Assembly: GCA_016869515.1 (NCBI GenBank)
Contig: VGDZ01000001.1
Span: forward strand, 1-64,000
Length of the DNA: 64,000 nucleotides
DNA from: Alphaproteobacteria bacterium
GTDB taxonomy: Bacteria; Pseudomonadota; Alphaproteobacteria; VGDZ01
Direction of reading: 5' to 3'
Both the position numbers and the translations under genes were made by a program. Under the pieces are notes generated by a model that ran no database searches, was not told where the DNA came from, and saw only the letters and a program-made list of their open reading frames with translations. This document shows positions 36,282 through 52,001 of the stretch, one piece after another. How positions within the stretch are numbered: position 1 is the first letter of the stretch; each line of letters begins with the position of its first letter.

Positions 36282-37559
36282 TTAGCCCCAGGCGTCCTGG
36301 GTGATGCTGTCGTACCAGCCCTGGGTGTAGAGCGCTTCCTGCCGGCGGAACGCGGCATCGGCCTGGCGCGGGCTGACGCCGCCCGAATTCGGCACTTCGG
36401 CGATGCCGGTCGCGCCCGGCCGATAGACGCCGGTTACCGAGATGCCGTAATTGGAGCCGACCAGGCTGTAGCAGATGTTGAGATAGGACGCGCCCGCGGG
36501 CGTGCGACCGTTCAACATGGCGACCACCGCCGCCGCCGCGACCTTACCCTGGGCGTTGGCGGCGGATCCCGATTTGGGCATGGCGCCGGCGATGGTGGCA
36601 TCGCCGATGACATGGATGTTCTTCACCTGGGTCGATTCCATGGTCGCCGGATCGATCGGACACCAGCCGGTCTGATTGGTCAGGCCGGCGCCGGCAGCGA
36701 TGGCGCCGGCGCGCTGCGGCGGGATGAAGTTGAGCACATCGCCTTTCCACTGGCCCATGCCGGTGAACACGGTCTTGGCGGCGGCATCGACGCGGGTGAA
36801 GCCAGTACCCTGGGGCAGCCCTTCCCACGAGATCATGCCGGGATAGAGCGTCTGCCAGGCGTCCTGGAACAGGGCCTGCTTGGAGAAGGCAGGCTTGGGG
36901 TCGACGATCACGATCTTCGAGCGCGGCTTGGCCTGCTTGAGATAGTGGGCGATCATGCTGGCGCGCTCGTAGGGGCCGGGCGGGCAGCGGAAGGGATTGG
37001 CCGGCGGCGCGATCACCACCGTGCCGCCATCGGCCATGGCCTCGAGTTGGCGACGCAACAGCACGGTCTGCGGACCTGCCTTCCAGGCATGCGGTGCCAG
37101 CTCGGCCGCCGCCTCGTCATAGCCGGGAACGGCGGCGAAATTGAGGTCGATGCCCGGCGAAACGATCAGCTTGTCATAGGGCAGGGACGCGCCGCCCTTG
37201 AGACGGACTTCTTTCTTGGCCGGATCGACTGCCACCGCCTCGTCGCGCACCACCTTGATGCCGCTCTGCTTGGCCAGCTTGTCATGGCCCTGGGTGATGT
37301 CGGCCATGGTCTTCATCCCGCCCAGGACCAGATTCGAGAACGGGCAGGTGAAGTACTGGGCATCGCGCTCGAGCAACGTGACTTCGATCGCCGGATCCGC
37401 CATGCGCACATAGCGCGCGGCGGTGGCGCCGCCGAAGCCGCCGCCGATGACGACGACGCGGGCCTTGGGTTGGCCGAGAGTGCAGGCCGAAAGCCCGGCC
37501 GCGGTCAGGCCGGTGGCGCCGGCCAGCTTGAGGAATTGACGACGATGGTTGCGGGTCAT
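36282..37559 (-). CDS. soxF: Flavocytochrome c sulfide dehydrogenase, flavoprotein subunit
   Basis: 425 residues from ATG 37557-37559. Leader with RRQFLKLAGATGL (Tat-type) ending near LSACTLG, where a lipobox-like cysteine also appears. The FAD fold starts VVVIGGGFGGATAARY. C72 in YFTCPFSNL corresponds to the cysteine covalently bound to FAD in Allochromatium FccB; C192 in PFRCPPGPYER and C363 in LNICYSLVG correspond to its redox-active disulfide pair. IHVIGDATIAGAMPKSG closes the FAD domain. Oxidises sulfide in the periplasm and passes electrons to the adjacent cytochrome subunit. Confidence 0.93.
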   Translation of the reverse strand: MTRNHRRQFLKLAGATGLTAAGLSACTLGQPKARVVVIGGGFGGATAARYVRMADPAIEVTLLERDAQYFTCPFSNLVLGGMKTMADITQGHDKLAKQSGIKVVRDEAVAVDPAKKEVRLKGGASLPYDKLIVSPGIDLNFAAVPGYDEAAAELAPHAWKAGPQTVLLRRQLEAMADGGTVVIAPPANPFRCPPGPYERASMIAHYLKQAKPRSKIVIVDPKPAFSKQALFQDAWQTLYPGMISWEGLPQGTGFTRVDAAAKTVFTGMGQWKGDVLNFIPPQRAGAIAAGAGLTNQTGWCPIDPATMESTQVKNIHVIGDATIAGAMPKSGSAANAQGKVAAAAVVAMLNGRTPAGASYLNICYSLVGSNYGISVTGVYRPGATGIAEVPNSGGVSPRQADAAFRRQEALYTQGWYDSITQDAWG

Positions 37560-38024: not shown

Positions 38025-38549
38025 TCAGCGGCCGAGCAATCGACTCAGGATCGGCGCGGGCTCGCTCAATCCGGCGGCGATGCGCTTGTCGTCCGAGCGC
38101 TTGACCACGGCCACGCCCAAAATCGCCAGGGCGATGCCCCACATCGCCGACAGCTCGGCCAAAGCGGACAGGATGGAGGGCGCTTCCTGCGGTCGGACGA
38201 CGATGGAATAGCCGGCGGCGGCCATGCAGATCGCCCAGCTGCAGGCGACGACGTAGCCGAAAAAGGGCCGCCAGCGCCGGGCGAACTTGTCCTCGCCCTG
38301 AACTTCGGCGCGGATGGTGGCGTTGATCTCGGCCAGATCGCGGCTGTCCAGCGCCGCCAGCGATTCGAGATGACGATTGGCCTCGGCCAGCCGCTCGGGC
38401 GCGATGCCGCCCTCGGCGATCGCGCTCGAAACCTGGCCAAGCGCATCGCCGGCCGCCTTGGCGGAGGGATGATCGAGCTTGGACAGCCCGCCGGCAACGG
38501 CCTCGATCAGGAGCGGCAGGCCGAGCCGGGCCAACAGCGCGGCGATCAC
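38025..38549 (-). CDS. Holin, three-transmembrane GTA-release type
   Basis: 174 residues from a GTG (38547-38549) overlapping the preceding stop by 4 bp. N-terminal hydrophobic helix IAALLARLGLPLLIEAV, a charged central helix region (AEANRHLESLAALDSRDLAE), then RRWRPFFGYVVACSWAICMA and a third hydrophobic segment AMWGIALAILGVAVVKRSDD. This layout, with the W-R-P-F-F-G turn, matches the 'holin of 3TMs for gene-transfer release' family known from the Rhodobacter GTA. It would permeabilise the inner membrane for lysis. Confidence 0.75.
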   Translation of the reverse strand: MIAALLARLGLPLLIEAVAGGLSKLDHPSAKAAGDALGQVSSAIAEGGIAPERLAEANRHLESLAALDSRDLAEINATIRAEVQGEDKFARRWRPFFGYVVACSWAICMAAAGYSIVVRPQEAPSILSALAELSAMWGIALAILGVAVVKRSDDKRIAAGLSEPAPILSRLLGR

Positions 38550-38860
38550 AGCCTTTCCTCCCGGCCGCGCAGCGCGACCTGGTCGAGCTTGGCCTCGATC
38601 CGGACCAGGTGCTCGGTCAAGCGCTTTTCGGTGTTGGCCAGGACGTCCAGCGAGGCATAGGTCTGGGCGACTTCGAGCTTGAAGGCCGCAAGCTGATCGC
38701 GCAGCCGGGCGAGGGCATCGCCCGTCGCCGCCTCGGCGGCGGCCCGCCCGGTCTCGATGTCGCGGCGGCCGCGGACCATCAGCCAGAACAGGCCGGCGAG
38801 GGCCGGCAATTCGACCACTGTGATCCACCAATTGATATCGATCGGCATGGCGGGAGTCAT
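38546..38860 (-). CDS. Membrane-anchored coiled-coil phage protein
   Basis: 104 residues from ATG 38858-38860. One N-terminal transmembrane segment (INWWITVVELPALAGLFWLM) followed by a heptad-like helix (LARLRDQLAAFKLEVAQTYA, then RLTEHLVRIEAKLDQV). Position between terminase and holin and topology suggest a lysis accessory (spanin-like or antiholin-like) protein, but no family motif fixes this. Overlaps the holin start by 4 bp. Confidence 0.7.
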   Translation of the reverse strand: MTPAMPIDINWWITVVELPALAGLFWLMVRGRRDIETGRAAAEAATGDALARLRDQLAAFKLEVAQTYASLDVLANTEKRLTEHLVRIEAKLDQVALRGREERL

Positions 38861-38883
38861 TGTTGGGTTCTCCGTTGTCGGCA

Positions 38884-40368
38884 TCAGGTCAGGGGATCGA
38901 ACTGGGTCGTCGCCAGGCGGGCGCCGGCGCCGCGCGGCCAAGCCGGTCGTTGGCCCGGAACGGCGGGCGAGCGGCGCGATGGCAACGAAAGAATGGCGCC
39001 GGCCACGGCGTCGAGCCCGTCGTCGCGGCTCTTGCCGTCCGGACGCCAATCGCGCATTTCGGCGGCCAAGGGTCCGGCCAACACCAACTCGTGAGCGCGG
39101 ATGCGGCGGGCCTCGAGCGCGCCGTCCAGCGCCGCCAGGATCCGGCTTTCCTTGTTGTGAAGATTGGGGCGCTCGGCCACGGCGCAGCCGATGCCCCACC
39201 GCGACAGCGCGCTGCGCAGCAACCCGGGCAAGAAGCCACCGATGCCGTTGGTCTCGATCGTCACGCTCGGCAGCTGCAATTCGGCGACTAGTCGCGCCAC
39301 GCGTTCGCATTGTTGGGTCGCGGCGTCGACGCGATCGAGCAGCGCGACATCGACCGTCAGATAGTCGACCCGGTGCAGCCAATAGTTGCCTCCGTCGTCC
39401 TGAAAGACGGCGGCGACGACGCTGGCATCGCCGCGCTCGGGCCGGCCGAAGGCCGGATCCCAATGGCAGCTGGCGCCGACCATGCGCCGCGCGCCGATGC
39501 TGAGCTGGGCGCCGCCATTGCCGACCTCGTGGCGCAGGCCGTCGGCATAGGGCACCAGCTTGGCGGGGTCGAGCCGGATGTCGGTGGTTGCCATCGGCTC
39601 CAACTGCATCTGGCTGTGGAACTTGGCCGGACCGGTGCGCTCGCGGATGACGGCGATGCGTTCGACCGTGAATCGTTCGGGCCAGCGCGATCCACCGCGC
39701 TCATCCAAGAGCGGCAGGCGCAGCGCCTTGAAGCCGTGCAGGTAGCCGGGCCCCGCGGCGCCCCGCCCGACGGCGTAGATCGTATCGAAGGCGTGCGGCG
39801 TCCCGGCATAGACTTGGGTGCCGTCGGGCACCAGCACGTATTCGATCTCGCTCAGACGCTGCCGCAATTCCTTGCGCTTGGCCGAGGTGTCGCTGGTATT
39901 GGGCACTTCGACGTCGTCGCACAGCACGACTTCGGCCCGGCAACCGGTCAAATTGGCCTCGATGCCCTTGGCCATCATCGAGGGATCGCGCCAATCCTTG
40001 CGGCGGCAGACGGTGAATTGATCCGCGGCCCATTGCTCGACCTTGGTCGGGCGCAGTTTCTCGGCCGCCGGATGGCGTTCGACCACGCGGCGAACGTTGC
40101 GCACCATCTTGCGCGCCAGTGCGCCGTCGGCGGCCAGCACCAGAATCCGCAGATCCGGATTCTTGACCAGCAGCCAGGCGGCGAATAGGCCAAGCAAGGT
40201 CGATTTGCCGGCGTCGCGGAATACCATCAGCAAGAGCTGACGATCGCCGGCACGCCAGGACGATTCCAGCCATGCGATGATTTCGCCGTGCAGCGCCGGC
40301 GTGGTCAGACCTTGCAGCTTGTTCCAGCTATCGACAAATCTCCTGAATCCGCCCCGTGCGGCGTTCAA
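38884..40368 (-). CDS. Phage terminase large subunit
   Basis: 494 residues from a TTG (40366-40368) that overlaps the upstream stop as TTGA; the longer open frame upstream is a shadow. The ATPase has a Walker A-like MVFRDAGKSTLLGL and a Walker B EVVLCDDVEV. The nuclease half has acidic clusters in HWDPAFGRPERGDASVV and the final DGLDAVAGAIL. It packages DNA through the connector. No small-subunit gene is recognisable next to it, so packaging specificity (pac, cos or headful at random) is unknown. Confidence 0.88.
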   Translation of the reverse strand: MNAARGGFRRFVDSWNKLQGLTTPALHGEIIAWLESSWRAGDRQLLLMVFRDAGKSTLLGLFAAWLLVKNPDLRILVLAADGALARKMVRNVRRVVERHPAAEKLRPTKVEQWAADQFTVCRRKDWRDPSMMAKGIEANLTGCRAEVVLCDDVEVPNTSDTSAKRKELRQRLSEIEYVLVPDGTQVYAGTPHAFDTIYAVGRGAAGPGYLHGFKALRLPLLDERGGSRWPERFTVERIAVIRERTGPAKFHSQMQLEPMATTDIRLDPAKLVPYADGLRHEVGNGGAQLSIGARRMVGASCHWDPAFGRPERGDASVVAAVFQDDGGNYWLHRVDYLTVDVALLDRVDAATQQCERVARLVAELQLPSVTIETNGIGGFLPGLLRSALSRWGIGCAVAERPNLHNKESRILAALDGALEARRIRAHELVLAGPLAAEMRDWRPDGKSRDDGLDAVAGAILSLPSRRSPAVPGQRPAWPRGAGARLATTQFDPLT

Positions 40369-40709
40369 CTCTCTCGCCCGGCGGGCGGCGCTGGCCGGGT
40401 CCAGGCCGGCCCGGCGCCGACGATGCAGCTTTGCTGGCCCACGGTGTGCAGCGCGGTCCAGCCGCCGCCCGGCACGGCCACGATCTCGATCACCGTGCCG
40501 TCGACCGTCAGCCCGGCGAATACCGGCCGTTCGCCCCATTCTTCGGCGATGCGCGCCAGCATCACCGCGCGCGGACCGCAGCTGTCGATCGCGCTCGACG
40601 GCGTCCGCTCCGAGCTTTCGGCTCGCGGCGCAAACGCGGTCTGCGCCGCCCACGCCGGCGTGCAGGTAGACAGGCTGGCGACCAGGGCCAGCGCGAAGCC
40701 GGCCCTCAT
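40365..40709 (-). CDS. Small exported phage protein of unknown function
   Basis: 114 residues from ATG 40707-40709. Signal peptide MRAGFALALVASLSTCTPAWA, then DSCGPRAVMLARIAEEWGER, VFAGLTVDGTVIEIVAVPGG, GWTALHTVGQQSCIVGAG. Two cysteines flank the mature domain and could pair in the periplasm. Similar small proteins (Cys, ALAxxYGExP, GxWT, CxVAxG) recur beside terminase or lysis genes in alphaproteobacterial phages, from memory; function unknown. Linked to neighbours by 4-bp overlaps on both sides. Confidence 0.75.
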   Translation of the reverse strand: MRAGFALALVASLSTCTPAWAAQTAFAPRAESSERTPSSAIDSCGPRAVMLARIAEEWGERPVFAGLTVDGTVIEIVAVPGGGWTALHTVGQQSCIVGAGPAWTRPAPPAGRES

Positions 40710-40993
40710 AGCAAGCCTGGGGGCGGTGAAGCCGCCTTGAGGGCCTGCCATGCGGAGACCACGGCTTCGGTGAAGTGCTGCGAGCATGCCGCCAGCACAG
40801 TGTTGACATCGGTCTGACCGATCTCGCCCGCCGCAGCCACTGCCTCCAGAACTTGTTGAACGTCATCGTCCGGTGCAACCACGCAGCGATGCGGTCCCAT
40901 CAACGCGCCATCGTCGTTGAAACGATCGAACAGCAAATTGATCGGTCCCGTGGGCTTTGGATCGAACGAGCGCAGGATCAAAGTCTTGGGCAT
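40706..40993 (-). CDS. Small phage protein of unknown function
   Basis: 95 residues from ATG 40991-40993 with AAGGAG at ideal spacing. MPKTLILRSFDPKPTGPINL starts it, then MGPHRCVVAPDDDVQQVLEA and helix-rich C-terminus VLAACSQHFTEAVVSAWQAL. Acidic, soluble. Located between the fibre and the exported small protein; could be a fibre chaperone or a virion component. No family recognised. Confidence 0.7.
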   Translation of the reverse strand: MPKTLILRSFDPKPTGPINLLFDRFNDDGALMGPHRCVVAPDDDVQQVLEAVAAAGEIGQTDVNTVLAACSQHFTEAVVSAWQALKAASPPPGLL

Positions 40994-41004
40994 GGGTTGT
41001 CTCC

Positions 41005-42483
41005 TTAAGCACGCACATATGTAAAAGAACCGTGCATGCGGGAATTGTTGGTGCATTGCGTGTTGGTGACGGCTGTCACCGCGTCTGCGCCTACTGCCGA
41101 CTGGTAAAGGTACATTGACGTTCCGGTCGTCAACCAAAGGAAAAACGGCAGGGATTGCACATTGGTAAGCTCGACGTGGTGAGCGACGATGCTGCACGCG
41201 ATATTGTTGGCGTCCGGGCTAAAGGGCAGTCCTGAAATGGTAACACCGCCAGAGGCGCTGCCCTTGTTCGACAAATCTATGGAATAGGCGCAATAGACGA
41301 TGTTCCCAAACGTCCAATAGCGTCCGACTTGCCCGTCATAGGTGATGCCAGAACTCGATCCTCCGAACTGCCAGACGGGGGTCCAGGTGCCATATTCGAC
41401 AAGCGCCGCCAGCTTGGGCGCGTTGCTGGCCGAATTGTCGGCGATCACAAACTTGTCGTTGTTGCTGTCGAGCGACACGGTCGAAAGCCCCGAGGGCACG
41501 AAACTGACTTGCTGCCCCGAAACGCCAATGCCGGTGCCGGCGGTAGGGGCTCCACCGAGGCTGGACGCCGTGACCTTCTTCGGATTGTTGCTGTCCGAGG
41601 CATCGGTGATGACGACATAATCGTTGGCCGCGTCCACCGTGACCGTAGTGAGGCCGGATGGCGAGAAGCTGACCTGCTGGCCCGAGACGGCGATGCCGGT
41701 GCCGGCGGTGGGTGCCTGGTTGGCGGCGGCTATGGTGATGGTGTCGGTGCCGGCGTCTGTGGTCAGGGTGACGTTCGACCCGGCGGCCAGGGTCAGGGTG
41801 TCCGCCACCGCATCGGCAACCACGGTCGACTGACCCGAAACGGCGATGTCGCGGAAGCCCTGGATGGCCGAAGCCGAGCTGGCGGCCGCAGTCGCGGACG
41901 AGGCGGCGCTGGTGGCTGAGGTTGCCGCTGCGCTTGCGCTTGACGCGGCCGCGGTCGCGCTGGTTGCCGCCGCGGCGGCGCTGGCGGCGGCATTTGTGAC
42001 TCCGGTTGGCACGGTCAAGTCCGAGGCCAAGGCCGTGGCACCCGAGTTCCACCGTAAATAAGCATCGGCAACCGGCGGCGGCAGCTCGGTCGCCGCGGTG
42101 ATCGCGGTCGCGGGCAGGGTCGAAGCCCGCGCGCTGCGTTCCTCGACCTGTTGGATCATGAGCGTCAGGCGATCCAGCTCGGCATTGATGGCGCTGGCGC
42201 GAAACTCGCCTGCCTCCTGGAAATCGGCCAGGCGACGCACCGGCATGTCGCGCAGGATGGTGACCCTCGTGCCGTTGGTCGGCGGCGTCGTGAAGGTGAT
42301 GCTGCCGCCGTTGCTGTCGCCGAGACCGGCGATGGCGAAGCTCGAAGAATTGGTGCCGTCGTTGAACCATACCTTGAGATCGCCGGCCTCGAGGACCGGG
42401 AAAGGAAATGTGAAGACGGTCTGTGCGCCGTTGGCGGTGTATTGCACCCGCGGCGCAACGTCGTTGACGATGAGTTCGGGCAT
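41005..42483 (-). CDS. Tail fibre/spike protein with T7-like N-terminal anchor
   Basis: 492 residues from ATG 42481-42483 (CAGGAG upstream). The N-terminal 110 residues (VQYTANGAQTVFTFPFPVLE, GDLKVWFNDG, TRVTILRDMPVRRLADFQ) match the T7 gp17 virion-binding domain. An Ala/Ser/Thr stalk of about 45 residues follows, then two tandem modules beginning PTAGTGI.VSGQQVSF.PSGL, and a C-terminal receptor-type domain (YGTWTPVWQFGGSSSGITYD to the end). It is expected to trimerise and determine host range. Confidence 0.85.
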   Translation of the reverse strand: MPELIVNDVAPRVQYTANGAQTVFTFPFPVLEAGDLKVWFNDGTNSSSFAIAGLGDSNGGSITFTTPPTNGTRVTILRDMPVRRLADFQEAGEFRASAINAELDRLTLMIQQVEERSARASTLPATAITAATELPPPVADAYLRWNSGATALASDLTVPTGVTNAAASAAAAATSATAAASSASAAATSATSAASSATAAASSASAIQGFRDIAVSGQSTVVADAVADTLTLAAGSNVTLTTDAGTDTITIAAANQAPTAGTGIAVSGQQVSFSPSGLTTVTVDAANDYVVITDASDSNNPKKVTASSLGGAPTAGTGIGVSGQQVSFVPSGLSTVSLDSNNDKFVIADNSASNAPKLAALVEYGTWTPVWQFGGSSSGITYDGQVGRYWTFGNIVYCAYSIDLSNKGSASGGVTISGLPFSPDANNIACSIVAHHVELTNVQSLPFFLWLTTGTSMYLYQSAVGADAVTAVTNTQCTNNSRMHGSFTYVRA

Positions 42484-42514
42484 ACGTGACTCCTGGTTGG
42501 ATTGTTTGTGGCGA

Positions 42515-43189
42515 TCAACCCGCAGCCTTGGCCATCGATCCCGCTGCTTGGGCGTTGCTGGTGGCGATCTCGCCATAGGCCATGCGCTTCTTCAGTTCGT
42601 ATTGGCGGGCCGATAGACCAATGATCGGTACGCGCGTCGTGGCGCGGCGAAGCGACAAGGTCGACTTCTCTTGATCGAGGTCCTCCTGCTCTTCGAGGCG
42701 CGCCAAGCGACGCTCGCGCGCGGCGAGCAGGCGTTCCTGGGCTTCCCGCTCGCGTTCGCGACGATCCTCGGTCAGCAGCGCGGCGCGCTCGTTTTCGTCG
42801 ATCAGGTTGCGCAGCACGGTGCGGGCCGAACCCGAATGAGGATCCAAACCCTGCGCCGCCATGCGGGCACGCTCGGACGATAGGGCGCTGGCGAGGCGCA
42901 GGCGGCGGGATTCGTCTTCGGCCGCCTGCTCTTGCAGCGTGGCTTCGGTCTTGCGGTTCTGCTCCTCGGCGGCAGCCAGTTCCTCGGCCCGCTGCGTCTC
43001 GAGGCGTTCCCGCCTCTCGCGGTCGCGCAGCGCGGCCTCTTCCTGGGCAAGCCGGTCCTCCTGCTCGCGCGTGGCGCGGGCGGCCTCGAGCTGGTCGCGC
43101 TCCAGATTGATGGCGGCGCGGCGCGATTGATACTGAAACGGCGCGTTCAGGATCGGCACCGAGGCCATGACGTTGGATGTCTCTCTCAT
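42515..43189 (-). CDS. Coiled-coil phage protein (possible internal virion protein)
   Basis: 224 residues from ATG 43187-43189. After a short N-terminus (VPILNAPFQYQSRRAAI) it is an almost unbroken charged helix with E/R/Q/A heptads from about 30 to 180, containing SALSSERARMAAQGLDPHSG, and a C-terminus with ARQYELKKRMAYGEIATSNA. Located between tail tubular B and the fibre where T7 has its internal core proteins, but far smaller and lacking any transglycosylase domain. Overlaps the tail gene by 4 bp. Confidence 0.8.
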   Translation of the reverse strand: MRETSNVMASVPILNAPFQYQSRRAAINLERDQLEAARATREQEDRLAQEEAALRDRERRERLETQRAEELAAAEEQNRKTEATLQEQAAEDESRRLRLASALSSERARMAAQGLDPHSGSARTVLRNLIDENERAALLTEDRREREREAQERLLAARERRLARLEEQEDLDQEKSTLSLRRATTRVPIIGLSARQYELKKRMAYGEIATSNAQAAGSMAKAAG

Positions 43190-45096
43190 GTTTCGTTCAC
43201 CTTGATTTCGGAGATGACGCTGAGAAGGGTGAGCGGCAGGGGCGCGCTTTGCGCCACCCGCCACAGCGGCCGGTCGAGCCCCCTGACCCAACCGAGCGCG
43301 CGCGCGGTGCGATCGCCGGTGAATTTCGGCAGCGGCCGGTCGAGCAGGGCTTGTCCCGTCCGGCCATGGGTGACGGCGCGCGGGCCGAGGCCGCTGTCGA
43401 CGGTCAAGAGGCTGGTGTCCTGGACCCGAAACACGGCCCTTACCAGACGCGCCGGCAGAACCTGGTTGAGGCCGGCTCCTCCCGAGGCATCGGTGGTCGG
43501 CGGCAAAGGTTCGATCACGGACTCGAACGGCAGGCCGACCTCGATCGCGCTTGCCGGCGAGTCCAGGTCGATGGCGCCGCTGGCGACCACGGCATCGGGC
43601 CGGACGATGCCGTCGGCCAGCACCTTGACGGCGCGGGACTCGAGATGGCCAAGACCGGTCCAATGGGTCTTGGGCGTGCCGCTGGTGCCGGTCAGCGCGC
43701 AGTCGGTGCCGAGCGCGCTGTCGAAATGCTCGAGCATGTAGCTCGAGCCGCGACGGACCAGGAAATGGGCGCTGCCGCCGACCACCGCCACCGAGCGGAA
43801 AGCGCCGTCGGTGACCTGGCGCGCCCAGGCGGTGACCTGCTCGGTCCGGAACAGGGTCAGCGTCGCCATTTCGCCCGACGCCAGCACGGAATGGAACAGC
43901 CGATCGTCGGCGTCCCAGTCCTGGTCGACCGGGTCGACGAACATGTGACTGGCGACGGTCGCCATGTCGTTGGCTTGGTAGGCCTGCTCGAGGTCGGTAT
44001 AGATGAACTCGCGCAATTCCTTGCGGTTGCGCGAGACGAATACCGTGGCGCCGTCGACGCTGCGCGGCGGGATGGTGCAGTCCGAACAGGATCCGACCCG
44101 GGTTTGGCGGCGGACCTGCATCTTGGCCGGGGTTAGGGGATCGCCGGTCACCATCCATTCGGCGCCCGAGGTGAAGACCTGGAGATGCCGGCCGGAGAAG
44201 ACCGCGCGCACGGCATTGACCTGGTCCGACAGGATGCCGAACTCGATCGCTTCGTCGTCGAGGCCGGTGCCAAGGTCGAAGTTTTCGAACTCGGCCACGC
44301 GCGACAGCCACAGCCGATTGGGCAGGTCGCGCGAACCGCCGAATACCAGCCGGTTCTGATGGAAGGTGACGGCGACCGGCCAGCCGCGCGCGGCCGAAAA
44401 CGCCTGTTCTTCCCAGTCGTCGGTCGCCGCCGTATCGACCAAGGTCTGGATGACGTTGGCCGTGGCCGAGGTGGGCGAGCCCACGGCCGTGATCTCGACC
44501 TCCTTGCTCTTGATGCGGAAGCGCGTACCGACATGGTCGGCGACGAAGGTGTTGGCGGAGGCAGTCAGGGTGACCGAACCGGACAGGCCGCTGGGCTGCA
44601 GGGTGACGGTCGAGACGCCGAACTTGAAAAACGGCTGCGCCTTGACGCCGCCAGCCTCGTCGAAGGCGAAATTCGCGATCGACCAACTGACGTCGGAACT
44701 GCGCGTGACGCGCCGCGGCGCGACCTCGGGATGGCAGACGAACAGCGTGTCCGCGCTTTGGGTCCAGGTCAGCTGCGGGATCTGCCCAAGCGTCCATGGC
44801 GCCGAGAAATGGGTCAGATAGGCGCCGTCGCGATAGACGTCGACCCGGCCGGCGGTGATTGCCAGCAGGTAGGTCTGCTCGGTGTTGAACTCGAACGCCA
44901 GCAGGCGCCCGTCGCCCGGCAGGGTGGCGACATAGCGCAGGCCCCAGCGACGGCTGACGCCGCCGGTGGCGTGGACGAAAACGTTGCGCAGCTTGGCGGC
45001 GCCGTTCTCGTAGCTGCGCAGATCGCCGCGGCCATAGACCCGCGGGCTGATCTCGCCGGCGGTGAAGTTGGTCTTGGCGAGGGTCAGGCGGCCCAT
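43186..45096 (-). CDS. Tail tubular protein B-like nozzle protein
   Basis: 636 residues. Begins TLAKTNFTAGEISPRVYGRG and ENGAAKLRNVFVHATGGVSR, the typical opening of T7 gp12-like nozzle proteins. Beta-propeller-like middle: AFSAARGWPVAVTFHQNRLV, NRLWLSRVAEFENFD and SVDGATVFVSRNRKELREF. It forms the tip of the short tail. Its first base overlaps the stop of the tail tubular A gene and its end overlaps the coiled-coil gene. Confidence 0.88.
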   Translation of the reverse strand: MGRLTLAKTNFTAGEISPRVYGRGDLRSYENGAAKLRNVFVHATGGVSRRWGLRYVATLPGDGRLLAFEFNTEQTYLLAITAGRVDVYRDGAYLTHFSAPWTLGQIPQLTWTQSADTLFVCHPEVAPRRVTRSSDVSWSIANFAFDEAGGVKAQPFFKFGVSTVTLQPSGLSGSVTLTASANTFVADHVGTRFRIKSKEVEITAVGSPTSATANVIQTLVDTAATDDWEEQAFSAARGWPVAVTFHQNRLVFGGSRDLPNRLWLSRVAEFENFDLGTGLDDEAIEFGILSDQVNAVRAVFSGRHLQVFTSGAEWMVTGDPLTPAKMQVRRQTRVGSCSDCTIPPRSVDGATVFVSRNRKELREFIYTDLEQAYQANDMATVASHMFVDPVDQDWDADDRLFHSVLASGEMATLTLFRTEQVTAWARQVTDGAFRSVAVVGGSAHFLVRRGSSYMLEHFDSALGTDCALTGTSGTPKTHWTGLGHLESRAVKVLADGIVRPDAVVASGAIDLDSPASAIEVGLPFESVIEPLPPTTDASGGAGLNQVLPARLVRAVFRVQDTSLLTVDSGLGPRAVTHGRTGQALLDRPLPKFTGDRTARALGWVRGLDRPLWRVAQSAPLPLTLLSVISEIKVNET

Positions 45097-45665
45097 CAGA
45101 GTCGCGCCCCGATGAGGGTGAAGTCCTCGATCCGGCCGGGCACGTCCTGCTGGCTGTCGATCGATTTGGCGCGGCGGAACTCGTCCTCGGCCACACCGGC
45201 CAGCGCTTCGGCGCGGCTGGTGCTTTCGGTCAACGGCAGGCAGAACTCGGCGGCCAGGCGCGCGATCAGCGCCTGATCGAAGAAGGGCGGGAAGGCGCCC
45301 TCGTCCGGACGGTAGATATAGGTCAGGATGACCGCATCGGCATCGCATTGCAGCCGGCGATCGGCGATGCGGTAGTCCAATCCCCGCCCGGCCGCGCCGC
45401 TGCCGGCCGAAAGCGCGCGCAGGAAGTCGGTCGGAAGCTGGAAAGCGTAGCGATAGTCGGCCACCGGCGCCGCCACCAGCCGGGGCAAGCTGGCCTGGGC
45501 GGTGGCGAAGGTCCAGGGATGCGCCGAAAGCAGGGCATCGCGCGTCGAGCCGTAGAGGTTGCGCGCCACTTCGGCTTCGGCGGTGCCGTCGTCGAACGAG
45601 CTGAGCGCGGTGGCGCCGATCTTGATCAGGGCGCGCGCACACAGCGCGATGGGGGAAAGTGCCAT
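45096..45665 (-). CDS. Tail tubular protein A-like adaptor
   Basis: 189 residues from ATG 45663-45665. MALSPIALCARALIKIGATA, ARNLYGSTRDALLSAHPWTF and FQLPTDFLRALSAGSG are hallmark stretches of the gp11-type adaptor ring that links the connector to the nozzle. Helical, C-terminal region DEFRRAKSIDSQQ. Normal length for the family. Confidence 0.88.
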   Translation of the reverse strand: MALSPIALCARALIKIGATALSSFDDGTAEAEVARNLYGSTRDALLSAHPWTFATAQASLPRLVAAPVADYRYAFQLPTDFLRALSAGSGAAGRGLDYRIADRRLQCDADAVILTYIYRPDEGAFPPFFDQALIARLAAEFCLPLTESTSRAEALAGVAEDEFRRAKSIDSQQDVPGRIEDFTLIGARL

Positions 45666-45732
45666 GGGAGACCTCGCTTGGCAGGGAGGATCCGGCCGCA
45701 GGCCGAGGCCTGCGACCGGACCCGAACCCGGA

Positions 45733-46002
45733 TCAGTCGGTGTCGGCGGACTTGAACGACACCATGTCGCCGGCGTTGACCACGCCGGAGGCATTGGAGG
45801 TCACCACCATCACGCCATAGGCCGGCGTGCCCGCGGTGTCGGCATGGACGAACAGGAAGTCGCCCTTGCGCAGCACGTTGGAGGCGTTGTTGAAGTAGCC
45901 TTGGGTGTCGACGGTGGCGGCGGCGTCGGTGGTGGTGTAGTGCCACAGCGTGAAGCCGTTGGCATAACCGATCACCGACAGGTTCTTGGACGTGAACGCC
46001 AT
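45733..46002 (-). CDS. Small phage structural protein (capsid decoration-like)
   Basis: 89 residues: MAFTSKNLSVIGYANGFTLW, HYTTTDAAATVDTQGYFNNA, LRKGDFLFVHADTAG, MVVTSNASGVVNAGDMVSF. Beta-rich with small polar residues, located directly after the capsid gene, the usual place of head decoration or head-tail spike genes. Function inferred from position and composition only. Confidence 0.75.
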   Translation of the reverse strand: MAFTSKNLSVIGYANGFTLWHYTTTDAAATVDTQGYFNNASNVLRKGDFLFVHADTAGTPAYGVMVVTSNASGVVNAGDMVSFKSADTD

Positions 46003-46013
46003 GTACGTTCTCC

Positions 46014-46835
46014 TTAGCTCTCGAGGCAGCGCAGGGTGACGACGCCGCTGGCGTCAATCAGGGTCGAGCCCTGGCTCATCATGTTGTTGACGAAGAACGC
46101 GGCGCGATCGCCGTGCCAAGTGATGTCCGACTGGACGTCGGCGCCGACCGCATGGCCGATCGCCGTCTTGTGGTACCAGTGGCACAGCCGCTTCGAGGCG
46201 GTCTTGGTCAGGCCGGAATGCGGCATCCACAGCGTGCCCAGCCAACGCTTGGCCTGCACGCCTTTCCACGGCAGTTCGTCCGGGCCGACATAGTCGGCGT
46301 CGTAGAACTCGGGGATCTGCAGCAGGTCCGACCACTGCTTCCAGCCGATGATGGCGAAGCGCTGACCGTCGTCGGGCACGTCGCCCGCGCCCAGCAGCTC
46401 GTTGGCCGCCAGGATCTTGGCCTTGGTCAGGCCGGTGACGGCGTCGTCGCCGGCGTAGTTGGTGTTGCCGTCCAAGGCGGCGATCACCAGCTCGTCGGTC
46501 TTGCGACCCAGCGCATAGGCGCCGGCATTGGCCACCACCGAGCGTTCGTCGATGTTGCTCTTGATGTCGTCGAACTTGTCGATCCAGTCGCCGACGTAGT
46601 AGTCGGCCAGCGTGCATTCGACCGTCGAGTGATCGACGTTCATCACCGGCACCTGGCCGTGGCGCGCCTTGGTGGCGGCCGTGCCCTTGCCGACTTTCTG
46701 GAAGACCACGCTCGAGCCCTGGACGTTGTTCTTGACGCGCACGGTCGAACGCAGCTTCGAGCCGAGCCGCTGATAGGCCTGATGGACCTCGCGCTCGAAC
46801 TGCTTGACGAAGGCGTTTTCGATAGTGATAGACAT
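46014..46835 (-). CDS. Major capsid protein
   Basis: 273 residues. MSITIENAFVKQFEREVHQA, SKLRSTVRVKNNVQGSSVVF, DHSTVECTLADYYVGDWIDK and VGDWIDKFDDIK resemble capsid proteins of small-headed podoviruses; the C-terminal part DVQSDITWHGDRAAFFVNN and MMSQGSTLIDASGVVTLRC is typical. No N-terminal delta domain, consistent with a separate scaffold gene upstream. Confidence 0.85.
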   Translation of the reverse strand: MSITIENAFVKQFEREVHQAYQRLGSKLRSTVRVKNNVQGSSVVFQKVGKGTAATKARHGQVPVMNVDHSTVECTLADYYVGDWIDKFDDIKSNIDERSVVANAGAYALGRKTDELVIAALDGNTNYAGDDAVTGLTKAKILAANELLGAGDVPDDGQRFAIIGWKQWSDLLQIPEFYDADYVGPDELPWKGVQAKRWLGTLWMPHSGLTKTASKRLCHWYHKTAIGHAVGADVQSDITWHGDRAAFFVNNMMSQGSTLIDASGVVTLRCLES

Positions 46836-47065
46836 GCTTTGTTCCTTTTCGAGGTTGCGGGACGCGGCCGATCGCGGTTGTCGCCTTTGCAGGCGGCCGC
46901 GATGCTGCGGGCAAGACGCGGCCCGATCGGGTTGTCGCGCCTCGCGGAATCTCGGGATTGGGCTTGAGCCACCGCGGCCCGGCCCGGTCGGGAGGACCCG
47001 GACCGGACCGCGGGGCGAGCGCCAGGGCGTCGCGGAGGCGGAAGAACCGCGCCGCCTTCAGGCGC
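46836..47065. other. Non-coding spacer between scaffold and capsid genes
   Basis: About 230 bp without a plausible gene. It is GC-rich and contains an inverted pair GGCCCGGTC / GACCGGGCC-like around 46978-47010, which may be a processing or terminator stem separating scaffold from capsid expression. No clear promoter is seen. Confidence 0.35.
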
Positions 47066-47773
47066 TCAAGCCGGATAGAGCCGCTTGAAGCCCTCCGACA
47101 CGCGCGCGATGTAGCCCGGATCGCGATCGCGCCAATAGCGCGGATCCTGCATCATGCGGTCGAGTTCGGCGGCATCCGCCGGCGGGTTGGGATCGCGACC
47201 CCGGCCGACCAGGCCCGGCTCGCTCGAACCCATCATCTGATGCATCGCCATGACTCCCTCGTGGGTGGTCGAGAGCGCCTCGAAGACTTCCTTCGGCAGG
47301 TGGCGTTCGCCCCACTGCGCCAGCTGGCGCTTGAGTTCGCGCCACTTCTCTTCGCCGCCGAAATGGTCGATGGCGCGTTGGCGCTCGCGGTCGGCATGGA
47401 AGGACGCGGTCGCTTCCTCGAACACCGGCAGCATGTGCTCGGCCGCCAGGTCGTAGACCAGCTGCGCCTGGGCCGGGGTGAAGCCGGCGGCAAACATCTT
47501 CTTTTCGACTGCGGGATCGCGCCACAGCAGGGGGTGATTGCACTTGCAATCGTAGTCCTCGGGACGTTCCGGAACGCCGAGAGCGCGATGGAAGCGCTGG
47601 CGCGTCTCGTCGTCGGCATCGGTGCCGGGAATTTCGGTCATGCGCCCGAGCTTGCGCTCGAGTTCGAGGTAGGAGCGAACCAGCGCCTCGAAATTGGCGA
47701 CGCCGGTGGCCGGGTCCTTGAACTTGGCCGGCAGCTCGTTCGTGCCGGCGACCGGGGCGAGGGGGGTGGTCAT
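47066..47773 (-). CDS. Scaffold protein
   Basis: 235 residues from ATG 47771-47773. Acidic and helical: LPAKFKDPATGVANFEALVR, YLELERKLGRMTEIPGTDA, GFTPAQAQLVYDLAAEHMLP and a basic C-terminal helix GYIARVSEGFKRLYPA of the type that binds capsid protein. Position directly upstream of the capsid gene matches T7 gp9. Four cysteine residues are nearly absent except CKCNH, an unusual small cluster. Confidence 0.8.
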   Translation of the reverse strand: MTTPLAPVAGTNELPAKFKDPATGVANFEALVRSYLELERKLGRMTEIPGTDADDETRQRFHRALGVPERPEDYDCKCNHPLLWRDPAVEKKMFAAGFTPAQAQLVYDLAAEHMLPVFEEATASFHADRERQRAIDHFGGEEKWRELKRQLAQWGERHLPKEVFEALSTTHEGVMAMHQMMGSSEPGLVGRGRDPNPPADAAELDRMMQDPRYWRDRDPGYIARVSEGFKRLYPA

Positions 47774-47778
47774 GACGA

Positions 47779-48042
47779 TCAGACTCCTTGGGCTTGCGGG
47801 TTGGGTTTGCGGCCGGCGGCGACCAGGGCATGGATCGACGCCACCAGGTGGCGCTGGCCTTCGATGTGCCGAAGCGCGGCTTCGGAAACGTCGACCGGCA
47901 GACGGCGCTCGATCGTCAAGCTGCGCAAGTGATCGAGCACGCGGCGACCGTCGGCGCTGGAAAAGCAACGGGCAAAGGCGACGGCGATCGATTCGTCGTT
48001 GGGTTCCGCGATCGGCGGTGCGAAGGGCCAGATCTCAGCCAC
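47779..48042 (-). CDS. Bbp19-like small phage protein
   Basis: 87 residues. The core AFARCFSSADGRRVLDHLRS followed by EAALRHIEGQRHLVASIHAL matches the Bbp19-like family (F..VF.T..GR.VL..L, then EGQR.LV..I) encoded between portal and scaffold in Bordetella phage BPP-1-type podoviruses. Role unknown. Overlaps the connector stop by 8 bp and precedes the scaffold gene by 5 bp. Confidence 0.78.
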   Translation of the reverse strand: MAEIWPFAPPIAEPNDESIAVAFARCFSSADGRRVLDHLRSLTIERRLPVDVSEAALRHIEGQRHLVASIHALVAAGRKPNPQAQGV

Positions 48043-49498
48043 GACGCGCCTCCGCCCGGATCAGGGGATCGGGCACGCCCAGGCTGCGTCCCAGCCAACG
48101 GGCTGCGGCGGCGGGATCGAGCGCCTGCTGCGCCTCGGGCCCGAAGCTGCGCACCAGTTCGATCCACGACACCGTGGTGTCGGCATCGAAGCGCATCTGT
48201 GCCCGGGCCAAAGGCGAGCGGTGCTGGAGATCGACTTCGTGGCCGTCGAGCACGATCGGATCGATCTCGCCCCGGCGGCTGAGGATCGCCATGGCGCGCC
48301 GCACCAGCGGCGTCAGCAATTCGGCCTGAAGGCGTCCGAAAGTCGCGCCCAGCAGCTGGGTCATTTCGGCCGAGCGCTTCAGCACCTCGGTCGCGGTCAT
48401 GCGCGGCGATTCGATCGGCGCCATCTGATCGGCCAGCAGTGCCTGGCGGATTCGCGCCTTGAGCTGTTCGAGCATGTGGTCGGAGACGTCGAACCGTCCC
48501 GGCGCCTCGAGCGGCGTCAGACCGGCCGATCCGACCGCTTTGGGGATGATCGCTCCGGGCACCAGCCGGATGTTGGCCGGGTTCAACACGCCGTCATCCT
48601 CCGCCTGCCAGATGCCGGTGACCGCGATCGAGGCATTCTTCAACACCAATTCGACGATCTTGTTGGCGGTCTTGATGTCGGGCAGGGCCTTCATCACCGG
48701 CGAGCGGCCATAGGATTCGCCTGGCGCCTTGAGCCAGCGAAAGGCGATGAAGGGCGAGGACGCATAGCGCCCTTCGGCCAGGAACTGGCCGGTATCACCG
48801 GCTTCCATCAAGGCAGCGGCATAAACAAAACCGGTGGCCTCTGGGATCACCGCTTCGATCGCGGTAAAGCGGCTGTCGGGATCGTCCTTGGCTTGGCGTT
48901 CGAGCGCTTCAGGCAGGACGAAGCGCGGGAAACGAGTCGCGATTTGCGCCTTGGTCATTCGGTTCTCGCGATAGACCGTGTCGAGCCGGCCGCTCGGGCC
49001 TTCGTCGACTGCAGCATCCGACATCGGCACGGCCGAGAACTTGAACGCGCTGGCCTCGCCCGGGGGCGCCTCTTCGAAAGCAAGGCAGGCGGTGCCGGCG
49101 ATCGCCAGATCGAGATAGCACTGGTGAATCTCGACCGAAAAATTGGATCGGTCGAAATGGTACAGCATGCGTTCGGCCGCTTGGTCGAGCACCCGTCCGA
49201 TCTCTAGCCGATCGCGCTCGGGCACGGCGCGGCCCGGCGCCAGGCCGAACCAGCGCGACCAGGGCGGGGTCAACTGCGCCAAGAGGTTGGCGGCAAGGCG
49301 ATCGACGGCGTCCGCCGCGGTGGCGTCGAACAGGCGATCGCCGCGTCTGCCGGCCGCTGCGCCTTGGCCGAAGGGTTCGAGCTGCGGCAGAGTGAACTCG
49401 TAGCAATCGCGCCACAGCCCCTCCCAGGGCGAGCGTCGTTGCTTGGCCCTGCGATAGCCTGCCATCAGGCGTTCAAAGTCGAAATTCGATTTGGTCAC
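48035..49498 (-). CDS. Head-tail connector (portal) protein
   Basis: 487 residues from a GTG (49496-49498), 1 bp after the preceding stop. KQRRSPWEGLWRDCYEFTLP, LFDATAADAVDRLAANLLAQ, LTPPWSRWFGLAPG and the C-terminal ATEVLKRSAEMTQLLGATFG are the hallmark regions of T7 gp8-like connectors. Twelve copies would form the DNA channel to which terminase and tail adaptor bind. Confidence 0.9.
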   Translation of the reverse strand: MTKSNFDFERLMAGYRRAKQRRSPWEGLWRDCYEFTLPQLEPFGQGAAAGRRGDRLFDATAADAVDRLAANLLAQLTPPWSRWFGLAPGRAVPERDRLEIGRVLDQAAERMLYHFDRSNFSVEIHQCYLDLAIAGTACLAFEEAPPGEASAFKFSAVPMSDAAVDEGPSGRLDTVYRENRMTKAQIATRFPRFVLPEALERQAKDDPDSRFTAIEAVIPEATGFVYAAALMEAGDTGQFLAEGRYASSPFIAFRWLKAPGESYGRSPVMKALPDIKTANKIVELVLKNASIAVTGIWQAEDDGVLNPANIRLVPGAIIPKAVGSAGLTPLEAPGRFDVSDHMLEQLKARIRQALLADQMAPIESPRMTATEVLKRSAEMTQLLGATFGRLQAELLTPLVRRAMAILSRRGEIDPIVLDGHEVDLQHRSPLARAQMRFDADTTVSWIELVRSFGPEAQQALDPAAAARWLGRSLGVPDPLIRAEARRG

Positions 49499-49499
49499 G

Positions 49500-49775
49500 T
49501 CATTCCCCCAACAGGCTCTTGCGCTTCGGCGCGGCACCCAGGCTGGCGCCGCGATAGGACGTCGCCACGGTCGATGCGGTGCGCCGCGAACCGCGCGGCA
49601 GCGGCTCGGGCTCGGGCGCGGCGATCGACGCAGGCGGCGCCCGGGTAGCCGCGGCTTCCACCACTTCGACCGGCCTCGGTTCCGGTTCCGGCTGGGGCTC
49701 GGGTTCGGGCTGAACCGGAGGCGGCGGCTCCGGTTCGGGTTGAGGCGGTGGCGGAGGCGAAAAGAAGCGAGCCAT
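49500..49775 (-). CDS. Proline-rich small phage protein
   Basis: 91 residues from ATG 49773-49775. MARFFSPPPPPQPEPEPPPP is followed by more Pro-Glu repeats and then a conserved-looking tail RTASTVATSYRGASLG and KRKSLLGE. Equivalent Pro-rich frames precede connector genes in other podoviruses (from memory). Probably an unstructured virion or assembly factor. Confidence 0.7.
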   Translation of the reverse strand: MARFFSPPPPPQPEPEPPPPVQPEPEPQPEPEPRPVEVVEAAATRAPPASIAAPEPEPLPRGSRRTASTVATSYRGASLGAAPKRKSLLGE

Positions 49776-49887
49776 TGCGGTCGATCTCCATTGCACGGAC
49801 CCGGAAAACCGGGTCGCTTTCGAGTTCCGTTATGTTCCGAAAACTCGTCATTTTCGCGTACTTATATAGCACAAAAATCGTAAAAAG

Positions 49888-50367
49888 TCAAGACTTTTCG
49901 CCTTTAATGTTCCTCATATTTTCCTTGACGAGATAGTTATAGAGCGCATAAGGGGTTACCACGTGCCAGGCATGGATGCCCAAGGCGCGTTTGACGATCT
50001 CTACGCAAGTCGCCGGCAGGATTGGTGCAATTTTGCCACGCGGCCGGCGGACGTGAGTTTCAAGAACGCGATAGCCTAGCAAGCGATAGTGGGTTACGAG
50101 GTCGTAGTCCGGTCTGACCTGAAAGGCGCAGATTCTAGCGTAATTCAGCACAGGATCCAGAATCACCCAATTGCGGCCGATGGAAAATATGGCAAAGCAG
50201 TGGCGATAGCCGCGACGCAAGCCATGTAGCCAATTGATGTCGGTATCCGAATCGAAGATGACCAAGGCCAGATCGGCGTCCGCCGTTGACCCAAGATTGT
50301 CCTCGGACCGAGGATAACGCGGCCGACTGGGCGCGCCGCTGATACGATCTGAAAATAATGCGAACAT
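49888..50367 (-). CDS. Phage-linked Cys/His protein, possible permuted NlpC/P60-like enzyme
   Basis: 159 residues from ATG 50365-50367; an in-frame ATG at 50463 would extend it by 32 residues but has no RBS. Key parts: NWLHGLRRGYRHCFAIFSIG, WVILDPVLNYARI, RLLGYRVLETHVRR, and PATCVEIVKRALGIHAWHVV then TPYALYNYLVKEN. A His early (GYRHCF) and a Cys late (ATCVE) followed by V.TP..LY..L is the order found in permuted NlpC/P60 (YiiX-like) cysteine hydrolases. Lower GC than its surroundings. Conserved in similar phages from memory; the hydrolase role is inference. Confidence 0.7.
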   Translation of the reverse strand: MFALFSDRISGAPSRPRYPRSEDNLGSTADADLALVIFDSDTDINWLHGLRRGYRHCFAIFSIGRNWVILDPVLNYARICAFQVRPDYDLVTHYRLLGYRVLETHVRRPRGKIAPILPATCVEIVKRALGIHAWHVVTPYALYNYLVKENMRNIKGEKS

Positions 50368-50390
50368 TGCAACGGATACCCCTAATATAT

Positions 50391-50402
50391 GGCTAATTAG
50401 CC
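50391..50402. promoter_or_regulatory. 12-bp perfect palindrome, possible operator
   Basis: GGCTAATTAGCC is a perfect palindrome, 24 bp upstream of the ATG at 50367 and in the AT-rich space between the phage block and the S24 regulator gene. It could bind a dimeric repressor, but a palindrome of this length is expected several times by chance in 64 kb. Confidence 0.25.
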
Positions 50403-50514
50403 TAAATCGATCCTGGTTGACGGCCCAAATGGGCCGAGCTAGGATATTTGTCAATGGTTCCATAGAAAGTTTTTGGCAACATACAATCTGTCCTTGTGGA
50501 GCAAGGAGTTAGCG

Positions 50515-51153
50515 ATGTTGACGCACAAACGGGTTTGGGCGGTGCTGGACGCGATCGCCGACCGCAACGAATTGTCGGCCTCGGCCTTGGCGCGTCGGGC
50601 TGGGCTCGATCCGACGGCATTCAACATCAGCAAGCGGGTTTCGCCCAACGGTCGGCCGCGCTGGCCCAGCACCGAAAGCGTGGCCAAGGCTTTGACCGCG
50701 ACCGGGACATCGGTCCACGAGTTCGCAGAAATCATGCTGGCCGAAGAAGGCGCCGGCCGCCTGACCGCGCGCCGCATTCCCCTGATCGGCATGGCGCAAG
50801 CCGGCAACAAGGGCTATTTCGACGACGCCGGATTTCCGGTTTCGGGCGGGTGGGAAGACATCATCGTCCCCGATGTCTCCGATCCGCATGCCTATGCCTT
50901 GCAGGTGGTCGGGGACAGCATGGTGCCGGTCTATCGCGATGGCGACGTTATCATCGTTTCGCCCGCGGCCAGCGTACGGCGCGGCGATCGTGTGGTAGTC
51001 AAGACCACCGAGGGGGAGTTGCTGGTCAAAGTCCTGACGCGGCGCACGCTGCGCACGATCGATTTGACGTCGTTCAATCCGTCCCATCCCGAGCGCAGCC
51101 TGGAAATCGGCTCGGTGCAATGGATGGCGCGCATCGTCTGGGCCAGCCAATGA
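50515..51153 (+). CDS. HTH/S24-peptidase transcriptional regulator (LexA/CI-like)
   Basis: 212 residues from ATG 50515 (AAGGAG upstream). N-terminal helix-turn-helix SASALARRAGLDPTAFNISK; C-terminal S24 domain with cleavage site A96-G97 in GMAQAGNKG, serine S135 in VVGDSMVPVYRDGD and lysine K172 in ELLVKVL. Autocleavage on RecA filament is therefore possible. Proteins of this type are widespread chromosomal genes in alphaproteobacteria (from memory), so it may be a host gene rather than a phage repressor. The stop overlaps the aminotransferase start by 4 bp. Confidence 0.88.
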   Translation: MLTHKRVWAVLDAIADRNELSASALARRAGLDPTAFNISKRVSPNGRPRWPSTESVAKALTATGTSVHEFAEIMLAEEGAGRLTARRIPLIGMAQAGNKGYFDDAGFPVSGGWEDIIVPDVSDPHAYALQVVGDSMVPVYRDGDVIIVSPAASVRRGDRVVVKTTEGELLVKVLTRRTLRTIDLTSFNPSHPERSLEIGSVQWMARIVWASQ

Positions 51154-52001
51154 GCAAGCAGATCTTCCATGTCGACGGGCGCTGGACCAGCCGCGCACCC
51201 AAGCTGACCGGGCCGATGGACACGGCCTTCTGGCTTTCGCCGGTGGTGTTCGACGGCGCGCGGGCCTTCGGCGGCCTGGCGCCGGATCTGGACCGGCACT
51301 GTCGGCGCGTGGTCGAATCGGCGCGCCGCATGCTGATGACGCCGACCATCGAAGCGGAGGAGATCGAGCAGCTTTGCCGGCGCGCGATTCGCAAGTTGCC
51401 GCGCAAGGCCGAGCTCTACGTCCGGCCGATGTTCTATGCCACCGGCGGCTTCATCGTTCCCGATCCGACAACGACGCAATTCTGCTTGGCGGTCTACGAT
51501 TCGCCATTGCCGGCGCCGCGCGGATTCTCAGCCATGCTGTCGAGCCGGCGGCGTCCCGCCGCCGACCAGGCACCGACCGACGCCAAGGCCTCGTGCCTCT
51601 ATCCGAACTCGGCCCGCGCCCTGAAAGAGGCGGACGACAAAGGCTTCGACAATGCGATCATCCGCGACTTTCGCGGGAACATCGCCGAATTCGCCTCGAG
51701 CAATCTGTTCTATGCCAAGGACGGCGCAGTCTACACCCCCAAGCCAAACGGCACCTTCCTGGCCGGCGTGACGCGGGATCGGGTGATCGAATTGCTGCGC
51801 GCGGACGGCGTCGAAGTGGTCGAAAAGACCGTGACCATGGAGGACGTGCTCAAGGCCGACGAGGTGTTTTCGAGCGGCAACTACGCCAAGCTGCTGCCGG
51901 CCAGCCGAATCGAAGATCGGCATTTCCAGCCGGGCCCGTTCTATCGCCGCGCGCGCAAGCTCTATTGGCGATTCGCGCGCGAACGGGGCTCAGTCCTTTA
52001 G
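51150..52001 (+). CDS. Class IV aminotransferase (branched-chain aminotransferase-like)
   Basis: 283 residues. PLP lysine is K146 in TDAKASCLYPNSA; GNIAEFASSNLFYAKDGAVY with the E-N-F pattern and TPKPNGTFLAGVTRD complete the fold type IV signature (BCAT, D-amino acid aminotransferase, ADC lyase). Shorter than usual IlvE, and WLSPVVFDGARAF at the substrate loop fits BCAT-like enzymes. It is translationally coupled to the S24 regulator and its end overlaps the DUF429 gene by 12 bp. Confidence 0.88.
   Translation: MSKQIFHVDGRWTSRAPKLTGPMDTAFWLSPVVFDGARAFGGLAPDLDRHCRRVVESARRMLMTPTIEAEEIEQLCRRAIRKLPRKAELYVRPMFYATGGFIVPDPTTTQFCLAVYDSPLPAPRGFSAMLSSRRRPAADQAPTDAKASCLYPNSARALKEADDKGFDNAIIRDFRGNIAEFASSNLFYAKDGAVYTPKPNGTFLAGVTRDRVIELLRADGVEVVEKTVTMEDVLKADEVFSSGNYAKLLPASRIEDRHFQPGPFYRRARKLYWRFARERGSVL

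Follow-up and report, generated by a model that had tools for sequence, protein, structure and literature searches.

A block of about 16 genes for a short-tailed, T7-type particle lies on the minus strand between positions 38,025 and 50,463 of a stretch of 64,000 nucleotides from an alphaproteobacterial genome (assembly GCA_016869515.1, contig VGDZ01000001.1), hereafter called the window. The particle set is complete, and every reading frame of the block is open in this genome. Here we describe the block and its relatives and weigh the proposal that it is a gene-transfer agent (GTA).

Gene content of the particle block

Protein identities in the window were assigned from Pfam and PHROG profile matches. 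In the direction of transcription the genes run from portal, Bbp19-like protein, scaffold, capsid, 89-residue protein, adaptor, nozzle, coiled coil, fibre and large terminase (TerL) to a protein with one transmembrane segment and the holin. By coordinates, the features are:

38025-38549, minus: holin with three transmembrane segments, GTA_holin_3TM family (PF11351, E=4e-12); other loci have homologues in this position
38546-38884, minus: coiled-coil protein with one transmembrane segment, candidate lysis accessory (phrog_29007, E=1e-25); conserved before the holin
38884-40420, minus: TerL, start approximate (phrog_38, E=1.6e-75); ATPase and nuclease motifs intact by alignment
40365-40709, minus: small protein with signal-peptide-like N-terminus, no assigned function (phrog_25396, E=6e-10)
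40706-40993, minus: 95-residue protein preceding TerL, no assigned function (phrog_6228, weak)
41005-42483, minus: tail fibre with T7-type attachment N-terminus (phrog_1640, E=5e-30, residues 37-146)
42515-43189, minus: 224-residue coiled coil, probable T7 gp14-like internal virion protein (phrog_418, weak, E=0.003); same family and same position in phage Hodr (see below)
43186-45096, minus: nozzle, tail tubular protein B (phrog_376, E=3e-144)
45096-45665, minus: adaptor, tail tubular protein A (phrog_394, E=8e-46)
45733-46002, minus: 89-residue minor capsid-type protein (phrog_18004, E=6e-21; PF23982, weak)
46014-46835, minus: major capsid protein (PF19821, E=5e-86)
47066-47773, minus: scaffold, capsid assembly protein (PF05396, E=4.5e-14)
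47779-48042, minus: Bbp19-like protein (PF25181, E=1.6e-15)
48035-49498, minus: portal, head-tail connector (PF12236, E=1e-138)
49500-49775, minus: Pro/Glu-rich small protein with C-terminal KSLLGE (reading frame read directly; no family match)
49888-50463, minus: first operon gene, no assigned function, invariant His88 and Cys153 (alignment; conserved in about 60 loci)
50464-50514, no strand: divergent promoter/operator region (TTGAC and AGGAA enriched across loci)
50515-51153, plus: LexA/CI-type S24 repressor with Ala-Gly cleavage site and Ser/Lys dyad (PF00717, E=2e-22; phrog_4, E=4e-26)

An earlier note on this DNA, made from the letters alone, had described intact, colinear particle genes. 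The profile matches bear this out, as does the alignment of TerL, in which Walker A, Walker B and nuclease motifs are all kept; the start-stop overlaps it had pointed to are likewise present (nozzle and coiled coil at 43186-43189, adaptor and nozzle at 45096, TerL and membrane protein at 38884). Its limits for the block, 38025-50367, hold for the particle genes and fall short at one end: the true end is 50,463, because the conserved first gene belongs to the block. Besides this gene and the divergent repressor, the earlier note had overlooked the 89-residue and Bbp19-like proteins, the two small genes ahead of TerL, the coiled-coil protein with one transmembrane segment and the Pro/Glu-rich protein.

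As had also been stated from the sequence, Pfam and PHROG searches of the block found no integrase, polymerase, primase, phage RNA polymerase or recognisable small terminase, and nothing for replication or integration turned up in the direct flanks either. The window contains no tRNA; its sole tyrosine recombinase (12143-13099) is an Xer-type host enzyme 25 kb from the block, and the only others of the genome are one on contig C13 and one fragment. Genes for autonomous replication or integration appear to be absent, which is one of the marks of a GTA. Two arguments of the earlier note carry little weight. The missing small terminase is a common situation in podoviruses, where this gene frequently goes unrecognised, and a holin family named for GTA release is silent on function.

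The invariant His and Cys of the first operon gene had raised the idea of an NlpC/P60-like peptidase. We do not maintain it: the predicted model has a confident core and no significant match to solved structures. A 120-residue protein encoded between repressor and first operon gene in other genomes, for which a four-helix model with no fold match was predicted, was not found in the window genome.

Distribution, descent and operon splits

A capsid scan of genome contigs recovered 79 loci (59-76% identity) in Azospirillum, Niveispirillum, Skermanella, Roseomonas, Magnetospirillum, Ferrovibrio, Telmatospirillum, Minwuia and others. Across many genera these loci keep the same gene order and, in most cases, the divergent S24 repressor alongside. 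Such a comparison among relatives had been proposed in the earlier note. An even draw of 387 alphaproteobacterial genomes across the class, with the window genome as sole member of its order, holds the capsid in 76, nearly all with one copy only; 63 of the 76 are strong matches. The family group of A. brasilense carries it in 68 of 82 genomes and the portal in 67 of 82, nearly always as single, open copies, and across genomes portal and capsid co-occur almost perfectly.

The block tree, built from capsid, adaptor, nozzle and portal, has 11 of 23 splits in common with the rpoB tree (26 genomes); 2,000 label shuffles gave a mean of 0.15 and a maximum of 3. Clades of the Azospirillum, Roseomonas and Magnetospirillum types are recovered in it; the window is paired with Ferrovibrio there, and the rpoB tree likewise places the two in one group. 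Pairwise ratios of nonsynonymous to synonymous substitution rates (dN/dS), computed among relatives, the window having no close relative, lie mostly between 0.03 and 0.3 for genes of both halves of the operon, in genomes with joined and with split operons alike. These values, from a test that the earlier note had suggested, indicate that particle and packaging genes are under purifying selection, as in a GTA.

The operon is split in 14 genomes of the Azospirillum group, where at least 100 kb of the same contig separates the portal half from the capsid half, each of them intact. The spacing is 100-315 kb, and 2.6 Mb in one genome; one case lies on a single 4.36-Mb contig. The portal operon then comprises repressor, small protein, c191, portal, Bbp19-like protein and scaffold, and the capsid operon runs from capsid to terminase. 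In A. brasilense-type genomes the gap between the halves is only about 5 kb, and host genes, a GGDEF-EAL gene among them, separate the scaffold gene from the capsid gene; in the window these two genes are direct neighbours. An element with intact halves 100 kb or more apart is not an excisable phage in those genomes, and the arrangement would suit a host-controlled system. The genes of RcGTA and FpGTA are likewise spread over several loci (PMC9765227, PMC12946183). Because it is single-copy, conserved in order, in agreement with the host tree and split in some loci, the element can be regarded as a stable host locus of mainly vertical inheritance, a further GTA characteristic.

Some loci depart from this layout. 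Terminase, membrane protein and holin directly follow the first genes, ahead of the portal, in locus L247, so that operon order is not fixed. Strongly reduced genomes of 0.9 Mb from one family (L236-L239) retain the element, with shorter versions of portal and nozzle; an alignment covering three of the species shows a terminase truncated to its ATPase half (about 200 residues). In L227, L228, L229, L230, L231 and L234 (genomes G116, G121, G142, G146, G176) the portal gene is interrupted at one and the same position by prophages that encode tyrosine integrases and bring head genes of their own; in the three genomes that were read, each junction carries a 13-bp core, GCATCTGGCAGGC. The domesticated portal gene serves these prophages as attachment site, a role that conserved host genes also play, and its disruption is perhaps a switch or an antagonism. 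The capsid gene is split, with a short overlap, by an insertion of about 40 kb in L232 and L233 (G109) and in G129, an integrase lying at one end in G109; capsid matches end near residue 252 in several other loci.

The block is flanked by ordinary chromosomal genes, on one side for a flavocytochrome c flavoprotein and for EamA and MFS transporters, on the other for an aminotransferase and for DUF429-like and cobyric acid synthase-like proteins (the last two named by eye). The flavocytochrome c sulfide dehydrogenase flavoprotein gene (36282-37559) lies downstream of the element in the same direction, and the same gene, 53-55% identical, is downstream in the Minwuia and Kordiimonadales loci (L102, L103, L104), hinting at a shared ancestral location. 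The branched-chain aminotransferase gene (51150-52001) adjoins the S24 repressor, as it does in 12 of the 43 other loci whose flanks were long enough to tell, in distant genera (L067, L100, L219, L221, L227, L242).

Phage relatives, known GTAs and the repressor

Among cultured phages the nearest is Pelagibacter phage EXVC031P Hodr (OQ414635), with 48% identity in the capsid and 36% in the portal; no phage record exceeds 60% capsid identity. Both share colinear genes for portal, scaffold, capsid, 89-residue protein, adaptor and nozzle, as well as a Bbp19-like protein. In contrast to the element, Hodr is a free phage of 34 kb; it encodes a recombination exonuclease as well as two large internal proteins, and its terminase belongs to another family. 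Its nozzle gene is followed by genes for a gp14-like protein, a 783-residue protein, a 1,247-residue internal virion protein (phrog_342) and the fibre. As the earlier note had seen, the 224-residue coiled coil of the element stands alone between nozzle and fibre, with no room for gp15 and gp16; the full internal core of a T7-like podovirus (gp14, gp15, gp16) is not present. The loss of the large ejection proteins and of replication genes would fit domestication.

Membership in the RcGTA family was rejected: the marker PF13547 (GTA_TIM) is absent from the window genome, a Caulobacter control being positive, and capsid and portal are of other families. The RcGTA marker occurs in 39 of the 387 genomes, the capsid described here in 76 and both in none (7.7 expected); the P values for this exclusion ignore genome kinship, and it therefore mainly shows two systems in different clades. 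For Azospirillales, Acetobacterales and Rhodospirillales, no cluster resembling RcGTA was reported by GTA-Hunter (PMC6821227). With RcGTA and CcGTA the element shares single-copy, mainly vertical particle genes in Alphaproteobacteria, purifying selection, the lack of replication genes, the spread over several loci and a LexA-like repressor, RogA in the Caulobacter circuit (PMC9632790). It differs in its phage ancestor and has a T7-type short tail, a PF19821 capsid and a PF12236 portal.

FpGTA of Faecalibacterium (2026) is the sole podovirus-like GTA found in the literature searched; it comprises two operons about 125 kb apart, is nearly ubiquitous in its genus, and its particles were shown to carry about 9 kb of DNA (PMC12946183). 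Like the element it is GTA-like with podovirus-type genes, a likeness drawn by description and not by gene-level homology, but it belongs to Bacillota and was found in one genus. The earlier note's designation "candidate new" therefore needs qualification; we found no paper on this element or on an alphaproteobacterial podovirus-like GTA in the literature searched, subscription papers and preprints lying outside the search. BaGTA of Bartonella, compared by description and not by sequence, is also a domesticated phage particle of Alphaproteobacteria, yet with another phage ancestor and a run-off replication origin.

Earlier work, summarised in PMC3899980, reports that mitomycin C releases particles from A. 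lipoferum and Azospirillum sp. B510 that hold random pieces of host DNA of about 10 kb; their genes were only guessed. The element is carried by A. lipoferum strain Sp59b (L034), and we hypothesise that these particles are its product. The original 2008 report on A. lipoferum reportedly described the particles as siphovirus-like, which would count against such a link.

Of the 47 loci aligned, 41-43 retain the Ala-Gly cleavage site and the Ser/Lys dyad of the S24 protein, whereas RogA, the LexA-like protein that represses the Caulobacter GTA, is without key cleavage residues (PMC9632790). Of 32 upstream regions, 24 contain TTGAC (24 occurrences against 3.2 expected) and 22 contain AGGAA (26 occurrences against 3.8 expected). 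The S24 protein would repress the operon, with derepression under stress.

Particle function and competing explanations

Our analysis provides strong support for the block being a domesticated podovirus particle, of which we are highly confident. That such a particle works as a gene-transfer agent is, taken as a whole statement, likely, and the element is probably a second, previously unrecognised GTA of Alphaproteobacteria. Of the proposal in the earlier note, domestication is upheld by synteny, selection, the rpoB tree and the split loci; gene transfer is something that we infer.

The main rival is a conserved phage-derived particle with another use, for example an antibacterial agent of the PBSX or tailocin kind, a means of altruistic lysis or a protein carrier, which may package DNA and not deliver it. 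PBSX is a known particle that packages DNA without injecting it (discussed in PMC12946183); the absence of the large ejection proteins of Hodr would agree with such a use, and so would the 0.9-Mb genomes, which have retained capsid, portal and nozzle next to a truncated terminase. However, purifying selection in free-living species extends to scaffold, portal, capsid and a full-length TerL that includes its nuclease motifs, parts that a weapon made of a tail alone could do without. We consider a non-transfer function unlikely and DNA transfer the most likely use.

Repeated re-infection by a widespread family of temperate or satellite prophages, whose replication and integration genes were lost or lie elsewhere, would explain why all particle genes are phage-derived, why the locus appears in a catalogue of viral contigs as short proviruses (mostly 4-20 kb) and why some lineages lie off the host tree. 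It is hard to reconcile with single copies, the agreement with rpoB, operon halves 100-300 kb apart, the lack of an integrase or tRNA beside the block in the window and the distance to all phage records, and is very improbable; where the operon is split, it is refuted. An active excisable prophage, contiguous and with integrase and replication genes, was rejected on conservation, split loci and the lack of an adjacent integrase. The short block without replication genes, together with a broken portal or capsid in a few relatives, could also suggest a decaying remnant peculiar to this genome; all frames are open, homologues are under purifying selection in many genera, and the conservation data refute this explanation, to which we give almost no credence. 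The earlier note had named att sites and replication genes just outside the block in a single strain without relatives, or a lack of conserved synteny, as findings that would speak against its proposal; we found many relatives with conserved order.

Several points weigh against gene transfer by a host-controlled particle. The large internal proteins required for DNA ejection in T7 are missing, though present in Hodr, and DNA delivery is therefore uncertain, taking place in a different way or not at all; particle production, packaging of host DNA and delivery are all steps that we infer from the genes. No endolysin or small terminase was recognised in the block, and none of its small genes could be assigned as small terminase. 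There was no exact match to the RogA operator GGAA-N4-TTCC near the repressor in 37 loci, and the LexA box GTTC-N7-GTTC is absent from the window. Copies from Kordiimonadales and Oleispirillum deviate from the rpoB tree, so that some horizontal movement is likely. Eight consecutive genomes of the Azospirillum family group (G161-G168, 5.9-7.4 Mb) lack capsid and portal, apparently a clade-level loss, and insertions disrupt portal or capsid in a few strains.

If the element is a GTA, a T7-type podovirus related to Hodr-type Pelagibacter phages would have been captured by a Rhodospirillales-like ancestor early in that radiation and would have lost replication, integration and large ejection proteins. 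From then on it would have passed down mostly by vertical descent, as a particle operon under host control, kept silent by the LexA/CI-like repressor at the divergent promoter. Upon stress the repressor would be removed or cleave itself, capsids would assemble, and the terminase would fill them with host DNA. The holin, together with a lysin from elsewhere, would release the particles, which would carry DNA to relatives as a gene-transfer agent.

GTAs are believed to influence gene flow among Alphaproteobacteria, and the known ones cover only part of the class. We lean slightly towards a wider reading, in which the class would hold two independently domesticated, mutually exclusive GTAs, the RcGTA type in orders such as Rhodobacterales and Caulobacterales and the T7 type in Rhodospirillales-like orders (Azospirillum, Roseomonas, Ferrovibrio and their relatives, and the window's order), the latter being ancient, split in one clade, LexA/CI-repressed and delivering without large T7 internal proteins. 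If true, the element would be a second, independently derived GTA lineage, present in just those orders for which GTA-Hunter drew a blank, and a candidate source for DNA transfer in Azospirillum, with its mitomycin C-released particles (PMC3899980). Phage domestication for gene transfer would then have recurred, with lineages keeping one system or the other.

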